Assembly (NCBI RefSeq): GCF_002286985.1
Contig: NZ_NSKC01000005.1
Span: 248,001 to 312,000, forward strand
Direction: 5' to 3'
Length of the DNA stretch: 64,000 nucleotides
Source: Halorubrum salipaludis
GTDB lineage: Archaea > Halobacteriota > Halobacteria > Halobacteriales > Haloferacaceae
Part shown: positions 13,577-20,995 of the stretch, one piece after another
Layout of the letters: each line of letters begins with the position of its first letter
How positions within the stretch are numbered: the stretch's first letter is position 1
Notes under the pieces: model-generated
Databases searched by the model: none
What the model was told of the DNA's origin: nothing
What the model saw: only the letters and a program-made list of their open reading frames with translations
Translations under genes and position numbers: made by a program

Positions 13577-14929
13577 CTACCGGTCGTTCGGTCGGTCGAG
13601 GTCGAACAGGCGGTCGGCCGCGTCGATCGTCTCGCCGTCGCCCGCCCGCGCGGCCTCCTTGAGCCGTTCCGTCGGGGTCGCCAACAGCGACGCGGTCAGC
13701 GACCGCATCGCGTCCTCCAGCACCGCCTCGGGGTCGGTGTCGCCCGCGTCGAGCCGGGTCCGGGCGCGTTCGAGCTCCGCCTCCCGGACCGCCTTCGCCT
13801 CGCGGTGGAGCGCCCGGAGCGTGTCCTCCGCGCGGGCCTCCCGCTCGCGGTCGAGGAAGCGCTCGACGGCGGCCGCGACGCGGCGCTCGACCGCGGGCGC
13901 GGCCGCCCGGCGGACCGAGAGCCCGTCGGCGACCCGAGCGCGCACGGCGTCTAACCCGACGACGCGCGGGTCGTTCTCGCGGACCGCGGGGGCCGCGTCC
14001 GGCGGCGTCGCCAGGTCGACCACCGTCGCCGTCCGCGGGAGGGCGGCGGCGGCCTCGGCCCCGAACACCGGGTCGGTCGCTCCCGTGGCGGTGACGACGG
14101 CGTCCGCGTCGGCGACGGCTTCCGGGAGCGCCCCGAGCGACAGCGTCTCGCCGCCGCCGGCGGGCAGGTCGCTCTCCGGAGACCGGCTCACGGCGTCGAC
14201 GCGGAGGTCCCAGCGGGCCGTCGCGGCCGAGACGACCTCCGCGCCTATCTCGCCGGTGCCGACGACCACGAGGCGGTCTGGCGCCCCCGAGCGGCCGGCA
14301 ACGACGTCGCAGGCGGCGCTCCCGTAGTCGACGGTCCCCTCGTTGATCCGCGTCTCGTCGCGGACCGACCGCCCCGCGGCGAGCGCGGCGTCGGCCGCGC
14401 GGGTGAGGACGCCGCCGGCGAGGTCGGCCTCCCGTGCGGCCTCGAACGCGCGCCGGAGCTGGCCGAGCACGTGGTCCTCGCCGAGGATCGGGCTCTCCAG
14501 CCCGCACGCGAGCCGCGTCAGGTGTTCGACGGCGGTCCGCCCGCGCTCCACGCGCGGGTCCGGGACGCCGAGCGCCTCGCGGGCCGCCCGGATCCCCGTC
14601 TCGCGGTCCGCGGCCGTGCGCGTGGCGACGAACACCGCGGCCCGCTCGCACGTCTCGACGGCGACCGCCCCCGTCACGCGGTCCGCGTCGGCGACCCGGC
14701 GCGCCGTCGCGACCGGGTCGTCGATCGCCCGGCCGACGGCCGCCCCGGATCGGTCCGACCCGGTGATCCGACAGCACACGAGCCGCCGGACGCTCTCGGG
14801 GACCGGGTCGTCGCGTCCGGTCGGTTCCGCGTTCGCGTCGGTTGCGGCGGTCGCGTCGGTTCCGTCGGTCGCGTCGGTCGCGTCGGTCGCGTCAGTCGGG
14901 CTCTCCCCGTCGCGTTCGAGTGCGGGCAT
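13577..14929 (-). CDS. hemA: Glutamyl-tRNA reductase (heme d1 operon copy)
   Basis: Catalyses NADPH-dependent reduction of glutamyl-tRNA(Glu) to glutamate-1-semialdehyde, the first step of tetrapyrrole synthesis. The protein has 450 residues. The catalytic cysteine is C94 in VAVETCERAAVF. Further marks are LGEDHVLGQLRRAFEAA, the NADPH-binding LVVVGTGEIGAEVVSAA, and the dimerisation helix rich in Ala/Arg/Glu at the end. The first 45 residues are an unusual Thr-Asp-Ala repeat tail. The open frame continues upstream, but the ATG at 14929 fits the operon, 8 bases after the radical SAM gene. Its N-terminal catalytic domain (CRITGSDRSGAAVG) is divergent, so it could be a paralogue dedicated to heme d1 supply. 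Confidence 0.88.
   Translation of the reverse strand: MPALERDGESPTDATDATDATDGTDATAATDANAEPTGRDDPVPESVRRLVCCRITGSDRSGAAVGRAIDDPVATARRVADADRVTGAVAVETCERAAVFVATRTAADRETGIRAAREALGVPDPRVERGRTAVEHLTRLACGLESPILGEDHVLGQLRRAFEAAREADLAGGVLTRAADAALAAGRSVRDETRINEGTVDYGSAACDVVAGRSGAPDRLVVVGTGEIGAEVVSAATARWDLRVDAVSRSPESDLPAGGGETLSLGALPEAVADADAVVTATGATDPVFGAEAAAALPRTATVVDLATPPDAAPAVRENDPRVVGLDAVRARVADGLSVRRAAAPAVERRVAAAVERFLDREREARAEDTLRALHREAKAVREAELERARTRLDAGDTDPEAVLEDAMRSLTASLLATPTERLKEAARAGDGETIDAADRLFDLDRPNDR
14835..14897. repeat. 9-bp in-frame minisatellite in hemA
   Basis: Seven consecutive 9-bp units close to GCGTCGGTC cover 14835-14897 inside the 5' end of the glutamyl-tRNA reductase gene. On the coding strand they encode a Thr-Asp-Ala/Gly repeat. 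Because the unit is a multiple of three, copy-number change would lengthen or shorten the N-terminal tail without breaking the frame. Confidence 0.85.
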
Positions 14930-14937
14930 GGTCGGTG

Positions 14938-16149
14938 TCAGTCGGAGGCGATCGGCGCTTCGACCGGCCCCTCGTCCGGGAGGTCGGCGCACCGCTCCGC
15001 GTCGGTGAGGTAACAGCGCGGGTCCTCGGCCCACAGGTCGTCGTGGACCGCCGCGGCCCGAGCGCGGGAGTTCCCGCCACACACCTCCTTCCACGGGCAC
15101 TCCCCGCACGCGCCCTTCAGGTGCGCGGACGGCTCCGCGAGCCGGTCCCACAGGTCGCTGTCTGTCAGGATCTCGTCGAGCGAGCGCTCCCGGACGTTCC
15201 CGAGCGTGTACTGCGGGAGGAACATGCTCGGGTGGACGTTCCCGAGGTGGTCGACGTTGACCACCTTCGGCCCGGCGTCGCCGTTCTTCACGACGCGACC
15301 GGGGCCGTCGTCGAACAGCAGCCGGCGCGCGCGCTCGGCGCGCTCCGGCGACTCCTCGCGGATGCGGCGGTAGAGGTACACCGCGTCCGCGTAGTTGCCG
15401 GCGGTGAGCACCTGCATGTCCGGATGGGTCTCCGTGAGCTCCGTCGTCCGCTCGTAGAGGTAGTCGACGGCCTCGCGCGTCCGGTCGAACGGGAGGTCGG
15501 CGTCCGTGATGTCGCCGCCGCGGCCGGAGTAGATGAGGTGGAACACGTTGACCCGGTCGACGTCCTCCTCGACCGCCAGGTCGATCACGTCGGGCACGTC
15601 GTCGACGGTCCCGCGGGTCATCGTCGTGCGGATCCCGACGCTCATCCCGGCGTCGCGGGCGTTGCGGAGCCCCTCGCGGGCGCGCTCGAACGCGCCGTCG
15701 ACGCCGCGGAACGCGTCGTTCGTCGCCCCGACGCCGTCGAGCGAGACGCCGACGTACCGGAGCCCGGCGTCGGCAAGCTCCCGGGCGCGCTCCTCGGTGA
15801 GGAACGTCCCGTTGCTCGACGCGATGGGGCGGATCCCGCGGTCGACGGCGTGTTCGGTCAGCTCCCTCAGGTCCTGGCGGACGAACGGCTCGCCGCCGCT
15901 GAACACCAGCACGGGGACGTTCAGCTCGGCCAGCGAGTCGATGAACCCCTTCGCCTCCGCGGTCGACAGCTCGCGCTCGTCGCGCTCGTTGCACGCGCCG
16001 AAGTAGCAGTGGCGACACGCGAGGTTACACGCCTCGGTGACGTTCCAGACGACGAGCGGCACGACGGCGTCGCTCGACCGCCGGCCCTCGTACCGGATCT
16101 CCTCGGGCCGGTTGTCGAGCCCGCGGATCAGCCGCGTCAGGTCGATCAT
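14938..16149 (-). CDS. nirJ: Radical SAM protein, NirJ/AhbC-like heme d1 biosynthesis enzyme
   Basis: A 403-residue radical SAM enzyme. The 4Fe-4S cluster for SAM is held by C41, C45 and C48 (TEACNLACRHCYFGAC), followed by the SAM-binding FSGGEPFVRQD. The C-terminal SPASM-type cysteines (CGECPWKEVCGG) hold an auxiliary cluster. VNVFHLIYSGRGGD is typical of the NirJ/AhbC heme group of enzymes, which remove propionate or acetate side chains from siroheme-derived intermediates. Placement next to NirF-like proteins and a d1 enzyme favours NirJ (heme d1) over AhbC (heme b). The start overlaps the preceding propeller gene by four bases (ATGA), indicating translational coupling. Cytoplasmic. Confidence 0.85.
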   Translation of the reverse strand: MIDLTRLIRGLDNRPEEIRYEGRRSSDAVVPLVVWNVTEACNLACRHCYFGACNERDERELSTAEAKGFIDSLAELNVPVLVFSGGEPFVRQDLRELTEHAVDRGIRPIASSNGTFLTEERARELADAGLRYVGVSLDGVGATNDAFRGVDGAFERAREGLRNARDAGMSVGIRTTMTRGTVDDVPDVIDLAVEEDVDRVNVFHLIYSGRGGDITDADLPFDRTREAVDYLYERTTELTETHPDMQVLTAGNYADAVYLYRRIREESPERAERARRLLFDDGPGRVVKNGDAGPKVVNVDHLGNVHPSMFLPQYTLGNVRERSLDEILTDSDLWDRLAEPSAHLKGACGECPWKEVCGGNSRARAAAVHDDLWAEDPRCYLTDAERCADLPDEGPVEAPIASD

Positions 16150-17285
16150 GCGTCCACCTCCGGGCGGAAGATGCCGCTCGGCTTCTCACCGAGTCCCCCG
16201 ATGCGGTCGACGACGCGAACGTCCCCGGGGCGGCCCTCGCGGAGCGGCGCGGTATCGAGGACGGCCACCTCTCGCCGCTCCATGTTGCCGACGTAACAGC
16301 GGTCTCCGTCCGGCCCGAACACGAGGTGGAGCGGCTCGCCGCCGACCTCGACCCGCCCGACGACCTCGCCGGCAACCGGATCGAGGACGGTGACGCGCTC
16401 GTCCTCGTAGGCGTCGACGAGCGCGTAGCGCCCGTCCGGGGTCGTCGCGGCGAATCCCGTCGGCGTCCCCACGTCGACGAGGCCCGTCGTCGGGTCGGTG
16501 TCGCCCGCGGCGGCTTCCGTGAGGGAGACGATCGCCACCCGGTCGTCGTCGCGCGCGGGCACGACCGCGTAGCGCCCGTTAGGCCCGTCGCCGACGGCGA
16601 ACCCGTGCGGGTTCCCCCCGGTCGTCGCGGTCGCGCGGACGGCCTCGGCGGCGGGGTCGACGAACGAGACGCGCGAGGCACCGGCGTTGTTCACCGCGAT
16701 CAGCCCCCCGTCCGGGAGCGGGTACATATCGTGCGGCTCCGGGCCGACCGGGATCCGGGCGTCGACGTCGAGCGCCGGGTCGGCGGCGAGGGCCGCGACC
16801 TCGCCGGCGTCCTTCAGCCCGACGAACAGCCGCCCGTCGGGACCGATCCCCATGCCGGAGCACCGCGAGAGCGCCCGGCTCCCGACGGGGTCGAGCAGCC
16901 CCTCGCCGTCGACCGCGAACGCGAGCACGCCCGGGTCGTCGCGGTCGGGGAGGCCCACGCCGGTGCCGACGAAGAACAGCCCCTCGTCGGGCGCGAACGC
17001 GCTGCCGACCGGCATCGTCCCGAGGCGGTCGATCCGCTGGCGGGTCTCCAGCCGGTCGAGGTCGACGACTTCGAGGTGGGCGCTGGCGATGTACAGCAGG
17101 TACGCCACGCCGGCGTCGCGGTTGAAGACGGCGGTGTGCGGGTACCGGCCGTCGCCGACCTCGCCGACCACCTCCCCGCGGGACAGGTCGAGGACGCTGA
17201 AGTGGTCGCTCGCGGCGTTTTTCACTATCGTCGGCGTCGCCGCCGATGCGGTGCCGTCGATCGCTGCGTCGTGTCGTTGTGTCAT
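16146..17285 (-). CDS. NirF-like cytochrome d1-type beta-propeller protein (copy 1)
   Basis: A 379-residue soluble propeller with repeating YVTN-like blades such as GRYPHTAVFNRDAGVAYLL, VPAFGPDEG-like turns, and EPLHLVFGPDGDRCYVGNME. It resembles NirF, the protein that processes dihydro-heme d1 late in heme d1 synthesis. A histidine in the first blade (RYPH) is a candidate heme ligand. No signal peptide or lipobox is visible, unlike periplasmic NirF of some bacteria, so it is probably cytoplasmic. Its stop overlaps the NirJ-like start, and its own start overlaps the second propeller gene by four bases, both as ATGA. A role as maturation factor or heme d1 carrier is inferred. Confidence 0.75.
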   Translation of the reverse strand: MTQRHDAAIDGTASAATPTIVKNAASDHFSVLDLSRGEVVGEVGDGRYPHTAVFNRDAGVAYLLYIASAHLEVVDLDRLETRQRIDRLGTMPVGSAFAPDEGLFFVGTGVGLPDRDDPGVLAFAVDGEGLLDPVGSRALSRCSGMGIGPDGRLFVGLKDAGEVAALAADPALDVDARIPVGPEPHDMYPLPDGGLIAVNNAGASRVSFVDPAAEAVRATATTGGNPHGFAVGDGPNGRYAVVPARDDDRVAIVSLTEAAAGDTDPTTGLVDVGTPTGFAATTPDGRYALVDAYEDERVTVLDPVAGEVVGRVEVGGEPLHLVFGPDGDRCYVGNMERREVAVLDTAPLREGRPGDVRVVDRIGGLGEKPSGIFRPEVDA

Positions 17286-18424
17286 CGTTTCTCACCTCTG
17301 TCCGTTCTGAAACAGCCGGCCGGCGCGACCCCGTCCTCGAACGGGACCGTCGCGATCACGGGGTCCCGGCCGGTCCCGACCGCGGCCGTCTCGACCACGG
17401 TCACGCGGTCGCCGTCGACGCTGGGGACGTAACAGACCGCACCGTCGGCGCCGAACCGCGGGTGGCGCGGCGTCTCCCCGACCGGAACGCGGCCGACGAC
17501 TGACAGCGTCTCCGGGTCGAGGAAGGCGACCCGGTCGTCCGCGTAGGCGTCGACCGCGACGAGCCGCCCGTCGGGCGTCGCGTCGGTGAACGCGGTCGGA
17601 GTGCCGAGCGACACGCGCTCGACCGACGCCGGGCCGGTCTCGCCGTCGCGGAGCGCGGCCGCGTCGATCGCGGTGACGCCGTCGCCCTCCGTGTCGCCGA
17701 CGATCCACCGGTCGTATGCGGTGAGGACGGTCCCACCGCGCGGGTTCGGTGCCGGCACCGACCCCAGCACCCGGCGGTCGAGCGCGTCGACGACGGTCAC
17801 GCGGTCGCCGTCGGCGCAGTTCACGCCCAGCAGCTCGTACGCCGGCGAGTACGTCAGGTCCTGCGGCCCGGCGGCGACCGGGAGCCGATCGCGAACCTCG
17901 AACGGGGGGCTCCCGTCGATCCGGACCACCTCGTCGGCGTCGGCGGCGACGACCCACACGTCGTCGCGCGCGTCCGCGGCGATCCCGGCGGCCTTCCCCA
18001 CCGGGCGTTCGGCCGCGACGGAGACCTCCGCGCCGTCCGTCCGCAGGACGGTCACCCCCGGAACGTCCCCGGACGGCAGCGGCCCGTAGGTGCTCACGAA
18101 CAGGTGGCGGCCGCCGCGGGTCGCCGCGGCGCCGACCGGCGCGGTGCCGACGGCCTCGACGCGGTTCGCTACGGTCAGCCGCCGCAGGTCGACGACCTCG
18201 AGCTCGTTCGACCCCATGTAGGGGACGTACCCGTATCGGCCGTCCGGCGACCGGACCAGCCCGTGCGGCTGCCGGCCCGAGCCGACCCGGCCGACGACCT
18301 CGTGCGCGGTCGCGTCGACGACCGCGAGCCCGGGCGCGCGGAGCCGCTTGACGAACGCGAGCGGTCCCTCCGGTGCCGGCGGCGGACTCGCCTCCTCCGT
18401 CGGGTCGGCGTCGGTCCGGGACAT
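17282..18424 (-). CDS. NirF-like cytochrome d1-type beta-propeller protein (copy 2)
   Basis: A 380-residue propeller paralogous to its downstream neighbour. It shares the first-blade motif GRVGSGRQPHGLVRSPDGRY and YVTN-type repeats, for example DRLVAVDAYADDRVAFLDPE-like blades. No signal peptide is seen, so a cytoplasmic location is likely. The two copies might form a heterodimer where bacteria use one NirF homodimer, or one copy may be a NirN/NirF-like carrier; sequence alone does not decide. The ATG at 18424 is taken as start; a GTG at 18430 is possible. The gap to the CuA-d1 stop is 10 bases or fewer. It ends in a four-base ATGA overlap with the next gene. Confidence 0.72.
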   Translation of the reverse strand: MSRTDADPTEEASPPPAPEGPLAFVKRLRAPGLAVVDATAHEVVGRVGSGRQPHGLVRSPDGRYGYVPYMGSNELEVVDLRRLTVANRVEAVGTAPVGAAATRGGRHLFVSTYGPLPSGDVPGVTVLRTDGAEVSVAAERPVGKAAGIAADARDDVWVVAADADEVVRIDGSPPFEVRDRLPVAAGPQDLTYSPAYELLGVNCADGDRVTVVDALDRRVLGSVPAPNPRGGTVLTAYDRWIVGDTEGDGVTAIDAAALRDGETGPASVERVSLGTPTAFTDATPDGRLVAVDAYADDRVAFLDPETLSVVGRVPVGETPRHPRFGADGAVCYVPSVDGDRVTVVETAAVGTGRDPVIATVPFEDGVAPAGCFRTDRGEKR

Positions 18425-18434
18425 GGTCACGCGG

Positions 18435-20330
18435 TCAGTGGCCCTCGGCCCGGGTCCCGAGGAACTTGCCCGTCGGCGCGAGCAGTCCCTCGATCTGGTC
18501 GAGCAGTTCGCCAGTGTTCGGGTCGAACACGAGGATCGACTGGTTCTCGCCCATCCAGCCGCTGATGTACACCTTCTCGCCGTCGCGGCTGAACTCCGGA
18601 TGGATGGCGGCGGCGACGCCCCACTGGCTGCAGTCGATCTCCTGAGCCACCTCTAAGCTCTCCGGGTCGATCAGGTAGACGTACGCGTCGTCCTCGGTGT
18701 CGGTCAGGATCACGTCGGCCCACACGTAGTCGCTGTTCTCGTGTTTGCGGATGAACAGCCCCGACCCGCGGACGTCGATCATCTCCTCGACGTCCCACGT
18801 GGACGTGTTCCAGACGCCGACGCTCGGCGCACCGGCGTGGGTCGTGAACGCGAGGTCCTCGTCGGGGTACAGCGCGCCCGGCCCCGGGTGCGGGACGCCG
18901 TCCATCGGGATGGCGGCGACGTGCTCCCGCTCCTGGGTGTCGATCACGTCCATCTGGTTGTCCGTCTGCGAGGCGATCATGAAGTAGCGGCCGTCGTCGG
19001 TGAAGAAGCCGTCGTGGAGCGTCCGGCCGCAGTCGATGGTGGCCACCACCGGGAAGTCCTCCTGGGTGTAGTCGATGAGCCACACTTCGCCGCCCTCCTT
19101 CAGGCCGGCGAGGAACAGCCCCTCCTCGGGCACGTCGTACAGCGAACACACCCGGCTCCCGACGCTCTGCCCGTCCGGGTCGACGGTGTGGGTCGGGATG
19201 CGCTTGACCGGCTCCATCGTCTCGGCGTCGCAGACCACGAGGTGGTTCGGGTTGTAGAAGCCGCCGATCACCCATTCGCCGTCCCGAGAGACGGCGATGT
19301 CGCGGGCGTCGGTCCCCGCGTCCGCGACCGCGACGCGCTCGAAGCCGAACAGGTCGATCTTGTACATCTCGCCCTGCCGCGACTGGGTGTAGACGTACGC
19401 CCCTTCGCGGCTCTGCTCCGGCAGCTCCGGGTGGAAGTCGTGGACGTGGATCGCCTTCCCCACGTCCTCGACGCGCTCCAGCAGCTCGTCGTTGACGGTG
19501 TCGATCATCGCCACCGAGGCGTTGTTGCGCTCGGTGACGACCATGAGGTCGCGGAGGTCGAGGTCGTGTTCCGGCTCGGCCGGCAGCTCGCTCTCCTCCG
19601 TGATCACCTCGTGGCGGTCCTTCAGCGTCTGCATGTCGGTGAAGTCGACCTTCTCGATCGACTCCCCCTCGGGGACGACGTACAGCTGGCCGTTCATCTG
19701 GGCGTGGCCGTCGCCGCAGTAGACGTTACACTCGAAGTCGAAGGTCCCCTCCTCCTCGGTGACGAACGTCACCGAGTCGATCACGTCGTCGTCCGTGCTC
19801 TCCGGGAGCTCGATCGGCCCGATGTCGTACGGCTCCTCGAGGTAGAACGTGTGGACGGTGAAATCCTGGTTCTTCTCGAAAGTGGACTGCGTGAACTCAA
19901 TTGTGAGCTCGGTGTTCGGCGGGACCCGGATCTCCTGCGGCTGGAACTCGTACTGGTGGGCCTCCAGCTGGACGGTCTCCGACTGCGCGGCGTCGGTCTC
20001 GCCGTCGGACGCCGACTCCGATCCGGACTCCGGATCCCCCTCTTCGTCGGTCGATTCCGACGGCTCCGACTCGCCGCTACACCCCGCGAACGCCCCCGCC
20101 GCCGCGACCGCGCTCGTGGCGAGGAACCGCCGCCGATCGGGCTTCGGAAGCCCCATCTCGAAGTCGAGCGCGTCGTCGAACTCCAGGTTCGACGCGATCT
20201 CGCGCGACGCGCTGAGGTGGCGTTTGATCCGTTCCTCGTGGTCCGCCTTCCGTTCGCGGTGGTCGGTCCGCTCCCGTTCGGACTTCTGGTCTCGGTCCTC
20301 CGTCTCTCGGGGCGTCGTGGGCTGTGACAT
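18435..20330 (-). CDS. CuA-domain / cytochrome d1 fusion, putative nitrite reductase (NirS-like)
   Basis: A 631-residue exported protein in three parts. Residues 1-64 are a highly charged extension; 65-84 are a Tat lipoprotein signal (DRRRFLATSA...AFAGC, C84). Residues about 118-222 form a cupredoxin domain with a full CuA ligand set: H160 (FTVHTFYL), C201, C205, H209 and M212 (CNVYCGDGHAQM). From about 255 to the end is an eight-bladed d1 propeller with the proximal histidine H295 (GKAIHVHDF) and both active-site histidines, H439 (RTLHDGFF) and H481 (GVPHPGPG), matching NirS LHDG and PHPG. The C-terminus LLAPTGKFLG also matches NirS. It lacks any CxxCH, so CuA replaces cytochrome c. Predicted reaction: nitrite to nitric oxide outside the cell. 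First gene of the operon. Confidence 0.88.
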   Translation of the reverse strand: MSQPTTPRETEDRDQKSERERTDHRERKADHEERIKRHLSASREIASNLEFDDALDFEMGLPKPDRRRFLATSAVAAAGAFAGCSGESEPSESTDEEGDPESGSESASDGETDAAQSETVQLEAHQYEFQPQEIRVPPNTELTIEFTQSTFEKNQDFTVHTFYLEEPYDIGPIELPESTDDDVIDSVTFVTEEEGTFDFECNVYCGDGHAQMNGQLYVVPEGESIEKVDFTDMQTLKDRHEVITEESELPAEPEHDLDLRDLMVVTERNNASVAMIDTVNDELLERVEDVGKAIHVHDFHPELPEQSREGAYVYTQSRQGEMYKIDLFGFERVAVADAGTDARDIAVSRDGEWVIGGFYNPNHLVVCDAETMEPVKRIPTHTVDPDGQSVGSRVCSLYDVPEEGLFLAGLKEGGEVWLIDYTQEDFPVVATIDCGRTLHDGFFTDDGRYFMIASQTDNQMDVIDTQEREHVAAIPMDGVPHPGPGALYPDEDLAFTTHAGAPSVGVWNTSTWDVEEMIDVRGSGLFIRKHENSDYVWADVILTDTEDDAYVYLIDPESLEVAQEIDCSQWGVAAAIHPEFSRDGEKVYISGWMGENQSILVFDPNTGELLDQIEGLLAPTGKFLGTRAEGH

Positions 20331-20406
20331 AGTGGTTCCCCTGAGCCGGATTTCGTCCGGTTCCGGCCAAAAGGTCCTGTATGGTTCCATGCGCGTTGGA
20401 AAATCG

Positions 20407-20432
20407 GTGAACATGTTCGCAGGAATATACTT
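20407..20432 (-). promoter_or_regulatory. Promoter of the CuA-d1 operon with 10-bp palindrome
   Basis: Upstream of the CuA-d1 gene the minus strand carries AAGTATATTCC (TATA-like, about 20421-20431), followed six bases later by the perfect palindrome GAACATGTTC (20409-20418). This places the palindrome near the -10 to start region, about 80 bases before the ATG at 20330, leaving an untranslated leader of roughly 70 nt. A regulator binding there would be well placed to control expression. It resembles, but does not match in spacing, the CGAAC-N4-GTTCG motif I recall for haloarchaeal denitrification promoters. Confidence 0.5.
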
Positions 20433-20545: not shown

Positions 20546-20995
20546 ATGTCTCGAGAGACCGACGCGGTACCCAGGGGGGACCGGATGACGCCCGCGTTCT
20601 TCGAGGACGTGCTCGCGGAGTACCTCGACGCGGACCGGATCGAGGAGGCCGTGGTCCGGCTGGAGCTCGACGACGGGACCACCAGGCGGGTCGTCGTCGC
20701 GGAGGACACCGAGTCGCTCGGTCCCGACGAGTACGCGGCCCGCGAGCTCGCGGAGGCCCGCCGGCTGATCGAGGGCCACGCCGACCGGTTCGAGGCCCCC
20801 GCCGAACTGACCGTCCCGGTCCGGGACGCCGACCGCGTCCGCGAGGAGATCGCGTCGGACGACGCGGTGACGACGTGGGTCAAGCCCGAGGGGGTCGCGC
20901 GGCTCCTCGGCCACTTCGAGGCGCTGACGCGAGCGGGCGAGACCGCGGACCCGGGCGCGTCGGTGGGCCGCTCCGAGGCGTCGGACGATCGCTGA
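20546..20995 (+). CDS. Haloarchaeal protein of unknown function
   Basis: A protein of 149 residues, or 136 from the ATG at 20585, which follows a purine-rich GGGGGGA. It is soluble, acidic and predicted mostly helical with alternating beta strands (IEEAVVRLELDDGTTRRVVV, ELTVPVRDADRVREEI). I do not recognise the family and see no catalytic motif. It is divergent from the CuA-d1 operon across about 215 bases that also carry the operon promoter, and 140 bases upstream of pspA on the same strand. No functional inference is warranted. Confidence 0.65.
   Translation: MSRETDAVPRGDRMTPAFFEDVLAEYLDADRIEEAVVRLELDDGTTRRVVVAEDTESLGPDEYAARELAEARRLIEGHADRFEAPAELTVPVRDADRVREEIASDDAVTTWVKPEGVARLLGHFEALTRAGETADPGASVGRSEASDDR

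Follow-up and report, generated by a model that had tools for sequence, protein, structure and literature searches.

A survey of haloarchaea lists NirK as their only respiratory nitrite reductase (PMC8400030), and cytochrome c is mostly missing from these organisms (PMC4429474). A clade of Halobacteriota cytochrome d proteins without cytochrome c served Pold et al. (2024) as an outgroup and was left out of their nirS counts (PMC10999283). In Pseudomonas aeruginosa, the keto groups of heme d1 are introduced in the periplasm by NirF together with NirC, which NirF requires, and this finishing step was assigned to the two proteins only in 2026 (PMC13168839). Further upstream, didecarboxysiroheme is the common precursor of heme b and heme d1, and the corresponding genes have been assigned in halophilic archaea (PMC3403918), so that no new upstream genes are needed for a heme d1 branch in these organisms.

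The window, i.e., the whole stretch of 64,000 nucleotides analyzed here (G000:C23:248001-312000), belongs to a genome of 3.5 Mb that is 99.85% complete and whose closest named relative found is Halorubrum amylolyticum. It carries five genes in the same direction on the minus strand at 13577-20430, encoding a protein with a CuA domain and a heme d1 domain (CuA-d1; 18435-20330, 631 amino acids), two d1-type propellers, propA (17282-18424, with an alternative GTG start at 18430) and propB (16146-17285), a NirJ-like radical SAM/SPASM protein (14938-16149), and HemA2, a second glutamyl-tRNA reductase (13577-14929). The propA/propB and propB/NirJ junctions are ATGA overlaps, and the gaps are 8 bases at NirJ/HemA2 and 10 bases at CuA-d1/propA (4 with the GTG start of propA); together with the conserved gene order, these coordinates bear out the compact five-gene operon, with overlaps or gaps of at most 10 bases, that an earlier note on this DNA had described. 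Relatives begin CuA-d1 at the position of 20330 (MSQ...), and the longer open reading frame start at 20414 is therefore probably wrong. A divergent gene adjoining CuA-d1 (20546-20995, plus strand) encodes a small acidic protein that is conserved at 11 loci (e.g., L017:9281-9721 in a relative) and has no match in Pfam or NCBIfam; its adjacency suggests that it may be tied to the d1 system.

CuA-d1 begins with an N-terminal extension bearing a Tat motif and lipobox (RRRFLATSAVAAAGAFAGC), followed by a cupredoxin domain (approximate limits 19671-19985, minus strand) with the pattern FTVHTF ... CNVYCGDGHAQM, for which the PDB matches are CuA subunits II. The CuA ligand pattern C-x3-C-x3-H-x2-M plus an upstream His (two Cys, two His, and Met), present here as C-N-V-Y-C-G-D-G-H-A-Q-M and the His of FTVHTF, is complete in all lineages shown. 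This cupredoxin takes the place of the N-terminal cytochrome c domain, and CuA is the only electron-input domain of the protein. In one lineage (L047-L049), a gene of the SCO1/SenC family, which is known for CuA assembly, lies divergently upstream of CuA-d1 (adjacent in L047 and L049).

The eight-bladed heme d1 domain (18456-19559, minus strand) matches PF02239 with 253 bits. In our alignment, His182, His327, and His369 of P. aeruginosa NirS correspond to GKAIH, TLHDG, and VPHPG of CuA-d1, and the three columns are invariant across 18 haloarchaeal rows; at the second position NirN has LDDF, and NirF has PYDA along with its PHLEGW signature. Arginines aligned with NirS are among the d1 pocket residues retained. 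The domain is 27 to 39% identical to the sampled NirS d1 domains, the nearest of which are those of Ruegeria and Aliiroseovarius (38 to 39%), and the predicted structure (mean pLDDT, 77) finds its best matches in NirN and NirS. Judged by these residues, the full NirS triad and the CuA site look made for electron input and nitrite chemistry. The PF02239 score, the triad, and the full ligand set thus uphold the earlier note's reading of the gene as that of a CuA-d1 enzyme. Other identities were considered and rejected: NirN, the top PDB match by score, is ruled out by the LHDG and PHPG residues; a lactonase-type NosZ model matches with 44.5 bits against a cutoff of 700; and a substitute for NirK is ruled out because NirK co-occurs.

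We read 16 loci, comprising 15 genomes of a 391-genome sample of the class Halobacteria together with H. amylolyticum. All 16 loci have CuA-d1, propA, propB, and NirJ in this order, at CuA-d1 identities down to 47 to 50%, which argues that the operon is not a chance assembly, and HemA2 follows NirJ in 15 of them, the exception being G223 (L046). In genome G085, propB seems to be split by a frameshift (L048 11553-12697), which appears to reflect either a pseudogene or a sequence error. Within the sample, propA and CuA-d1 occur in exactly the same 15 genomes, from six genera, and propA is never found without CuA-d1; identical sets would arise by chance with a probability of about 2e-27 if genomes were independent, and as the genomes are related, this value is a guide only. 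No other genome of the window's genus listed in the sample has the operon, so the distribution is patchy.

In the window's genome, NirK is encoded at two places and NosZ is also present. Among the CuA-d1 genomes, NirK scores over its cutoff in 14 of 15, versus 208 of all 391 genomes (p = 0.0009 in a Fisher test that ignores relatedness), and NosZ is found in 11 of 15. The idea that a d1 route stands in these organisms as an alternative to the haloarchaeal NirK does not survive this search: since NirK co-occurs, CuA-d1 is an additional enzyme and not a NirK replacement.

Upstream of CuA-d1, CGAACATGTTCA (20408-20419, minus strand; 89 nucleotides [nt] before the start codon) is an element of the CGAA-N4-TTCG type whose last base is A instead of G. 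In Haloferax mediterranei, nirK, nor, and nos are preceded at 66 to 79 nt by CGAAYATDKTYG, whose control of nor and nos was shown by mutation; the only change that caused no significant loss gave a nos promoter mutant with TTCA at its end (PMC10062603). The element in the window has the same 12 letters as that mutant. A CGAA-N4-TTCG element has also been noted for nirK and ahbD of H. volcanii (PMC5746218). In 14 of the 16 loci, the 200 nt before CuA-d1 contain CGAA-N4-TTC, against an expectation of 0.035 for a stretch of this length; its position is −160 in L047-L049 and −89 to −93 in the loci of Halorubrum, Natronomonas, and the Natrinema type. Genome-wide, the tighter pattern CGAAYATNTTC has 36 matches and its reversed control has 3, when both strands are scanned and a palindrome counts as two; the elements are dense at 65.5 to 79.1 kb of G000:C4 (L121), around a NirK and genes for a multicopper oxidase, a truncated globin, and a peroxiredoxin, and they precede the truncated globin gene and a DUF2249 gene. 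The match of the CuA-d1 promoter to a published denitrification element (PMC10062603) supports the proposed link of the cluster to nitrite respiration. At one locus (L061 8289-9432, genome G091), about 1.1 kb of extra DNA lies between the element and the CuA-d1 start and holds an open reading frame that by eye resembles an insertion sequence transposase.

In a 27-row tree of d1 domains, the sampled bacterial NirS proteins form one clade (support, 98/96) and the haloarchaeal proteins form another outside it; with these few rows, the AU test does not reject a placement of the haloarchaeal clade as sister to NirS (p = 0.256). Eight genomes, all of them operon carriers, also encode a d1-only protein of about 420 amino acids without a signal peptide (L053-L060; e.g., L053:8478-9737), which has the NirS-type histidines, groups within the CuA-d1 rows of the same tree (support about 90), and in 8 of 8 cases is preceded by the CGAA-N4-TTC element at −56 to −59. 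In Natrinema thermotolerans A29, the d1-only gene lies on a plasmid stretch with no listed gene (CP031304.1 420190-421376; L072 6001-7187) and aligns in two pieces. In the relative G320, an in-frame TGA falls upstream of the true start.

The two propellers score 40.6 and 26.8 bits against PF02239 (cutoff, 25.5), and only part of each matches. The model of propA (pLDDT, 90.5) is an eight-bladed propeller; almost every one of its 31 top Foldseek matches is a NirN, NirS, or NirF, with a TM score of 0.76/0.77 and 22% identity for NirF. If only the VIA-align Z score is considered, designed eight-bladed proteins that are unrelated do nearly as well, so the fold of propA taken alone is weak evidence. 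In the comparison with sequence profiles, general YVTN propellers come first and NirF third. The alignment shows the proximal His kept in both propA and propB and the NirF residue signature (PYDA, PHLEGW) absent from both, with Gln/Asn in propA at the NirF Tyr/His positions; no signal peptide was evident by eye at either N terminus. Hence, the earlier note's description of NirF-like propellers stands for the fold, as modeled for propA, and fails for the signature and an evident signal peptide. A role of propA in heme d1 maturation is probable.

The NirJ-like protein has the radical SAM motif CxxxCxxC (CNLACRHC) and all SPASM cysteines (CGECPWKEVC...C). It scores 376 bits with NirJ1, 369 with AhbC, and 334 with NirJ (TIGR04051; cutoff, 515), all below the equivalog cutoffs, and in a tree of radical SAM proteins the operon copy forms its own clade, where long branches meet. 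The cysteines agree with the proposed NirJ-like assignment, and sequence alone does not separate NirJ from AhbC. However, the genome has AhbC-type (TIGR04347, 713 bits) and AhbD-type (TIGR04053) proteins elsewhere, and the operon copy is therefore best read as a d1-branch enzyme. TIGR04347 is named pseudo-SAM, and yet its member at L063:6023-7252 has an intact CxxxCxxC, so that the name may mislead; the family is probably haloarchaeal AhbC. HemA2 has the glutamyl-tRNA reductase domains and the catalytic Cys and scores 185.6 bits with TIGR01035, under the cutoff of 209.6. Its assignment as a glutamyl-tRNA reductase holds, with the correction that it is the second HemA paralogue of the genome; the main HemA adjoins AhbA/B and a precorrin-2 dehydrogenase-like gene (the latter read by eye). 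As for the siroheme decarboxylase and the uroporphyrinogen methyltransferase, the earlier note held that they must be supplied from elsewhere and that a genome with no siroheme genes would speak against a heme d1 route; our genome search found two double-domain AhbA/B genes, at C27 and C1, both over the NCBIfam cutoffs, and SUMT at C26:197647 (291 bits), so that this objection falls away.

Taken together, we propose, with a probability of about 0.68, that the operon encodes a heme c-free, CuA-fed nitrite reductase of the heme d1 type along with its own heme d1 branch and belongs to the denitrification regulon. This reading draws on the NirS-type histidines of CuA-d1, a combination absent from NirN and NirF; the full set of CuA ligands, the SCO1/SenC neighbor, and the model matches of CuA-d1 and propA; and the gene order, the co-occurrence of propA, the restriction of the d1-only protein to carriers, the promoter element, the presence of NirK and NosZ, and the supply genes. 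For the catalytic activity, the identity of the cofactor, the order of the biosynthetic steps, the site of cofactor insertion, and the electron donor, we infer the following scheme. HemA2 would increase the supply of aminolevulinate, and the SUMT, precorrin-2 dehydrogenase, and AhbA/B of the genome would lead to 12,18-didecarboxysiroheme, the precursor shared by heme b and heme d1, from which the NirJ-like enzyme would remove two propionates. In the cytoplasm, propA and propB would then do the job of the bacterial periplasmic NirF (with NirC) and NirN; as NirF and NirC act in the periplasm, the haloarchaeal pair would need another mode of working. The holo-enzyme would be a Tat export substrate with a lipoprotein anchor, and outside the cell, electrons would pass from a copper carrier such as halocyanin through the CuA site to the d1 heme, where nitrite may be reduced to NO. 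Tat export is general in haloarchaea, and insertion of d1 in the cytoplasm before export is thus only suggested.

Some of our observations count against this reading and would fit other ones. With NirK in the same genomes, there is no obvious need for a second nitrite reductase, and the d1 clade lies outside the sampled bacterial NirS clade; an enzyme that uses heme d1 for something other than respiratory nitrite reduction, for example to detoxify NO or nitrite, to reduce O2 or hydroxylamine, or to sense NO or the redox state beside NirK, would account for the presence of NirK in nearly all carriers, a d1 clade distinct from NirS, a promoter element that also marks the truncated globin and other accessory genes, and a further, cytoplasmic d1-only paralogue. 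We regard such a function as unlikely although worth serious consideration, as the full triad and the CuA site look suited to electron input and nitrite chemistry.

The doubt may also be directed at the cofactor. The operon has no NirC, although NirF of P. aeruginosa needs it, and the genome has no NirN-like protein beyond the operon's own PF02239 proteins; add to this propellers without the NirF signature and secretion signal, Gln/Asn in propA where NirF has Tyr/His, and a radical SAM protein that falls below every equivalog cutoff and represents a separate subfamily, and the product might be a d1-related but different tetrapyrrole, for instance, one lacking one or both keto groups. That CuA-d1 keeps the d1 pocket residues, including the arginines aligned with NirS, makes this improbable in our view. 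We give still less credit to the notion that the radical SAM gene, as an AhbC duplicate, and the HemA gene are additional copies for heme b that sit beside a d1-fold protein by chance: the radical SAM protein is indeed 46% identical to the AhbC-type protein of the genome and only 36 to 40% identical to bacterial NirJ, but AhbC-type and AhbD-type proteins are already encoded elsewhere, all 16 loci keep strictly to the gene order, and the two-gene association of propA with CuA-d1 has no exception on the propA side.

If the CuA-fed nitrite reductase works as proposed, surveys (PMC8400030, PMC10999283) overlook a nitrite reductase, cd1-type chemistry is possible without cytochrome c, and the few genes of the operon would allow a test of which proteins heme d1 completion really needs. 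More tentatively, and at rather less than even odds, haloarchaea may build and use heme d1 independently, with two cytoplasmic propellers replacing the periplasmic NirF, NirC, and NirN, the cofactor inserted before Tat export, and CuA replacing heme c to give a nitrite reductase without a c-type cytochrome. On this view, the d1-only paralogue in the cytoplasm would act as a soluble heme d1 enzyme inside the cell, a kind of which we know no example.

The Halobacteriota outgroup of Pold et al. (PMC10999283) probably consists of the same proteins, so the d1 clade as such has been noticed before; we found no description of its CuA domain, operon, or promoter there or elsewhere in the literature searched. 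Among the maturation proteins, propA and propB resemble NirF (6TV2/6TV9) as eight-bladed d1-type propellers that keep the proximal His and are encoded beside a NirJ-like gene, whereas they come in two copies without PHLEGW, an evident signal peptide, or a NirC in the operon. The radical SAM protein shares CxxxCxxC and the SPASM cysteines with NirJ and AhbC and scores 334 to 376 bits with the NirJ, NirJ1, and AhbC models, and yet it stays below all equivalog cutoffs in a clade of its own. CuA-d1 is set apart from NirN, which has LDDF and a cytochrome c domain, by LHDG and CuA. With NirS (P. aeruginosa 1NIR and Paracoccus 1GQ1), it has in common the d1 propeller, the His triad, the overall fold, and the clustering with cofactor genes, but it is a Tat lipoprotein of a separate clade with CuA in place of the N-terminal cytochrome c. 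The C1-C2-NirS proteins of Chloroflexi, with their N-terminal cupredoxin (PMC8756737), likewise represent the addition of a copper domain to a NirS-type protein; there the cytochrome c domains are kept, whereas in CuA-d1 the CuA site is the sole electron-input domain.
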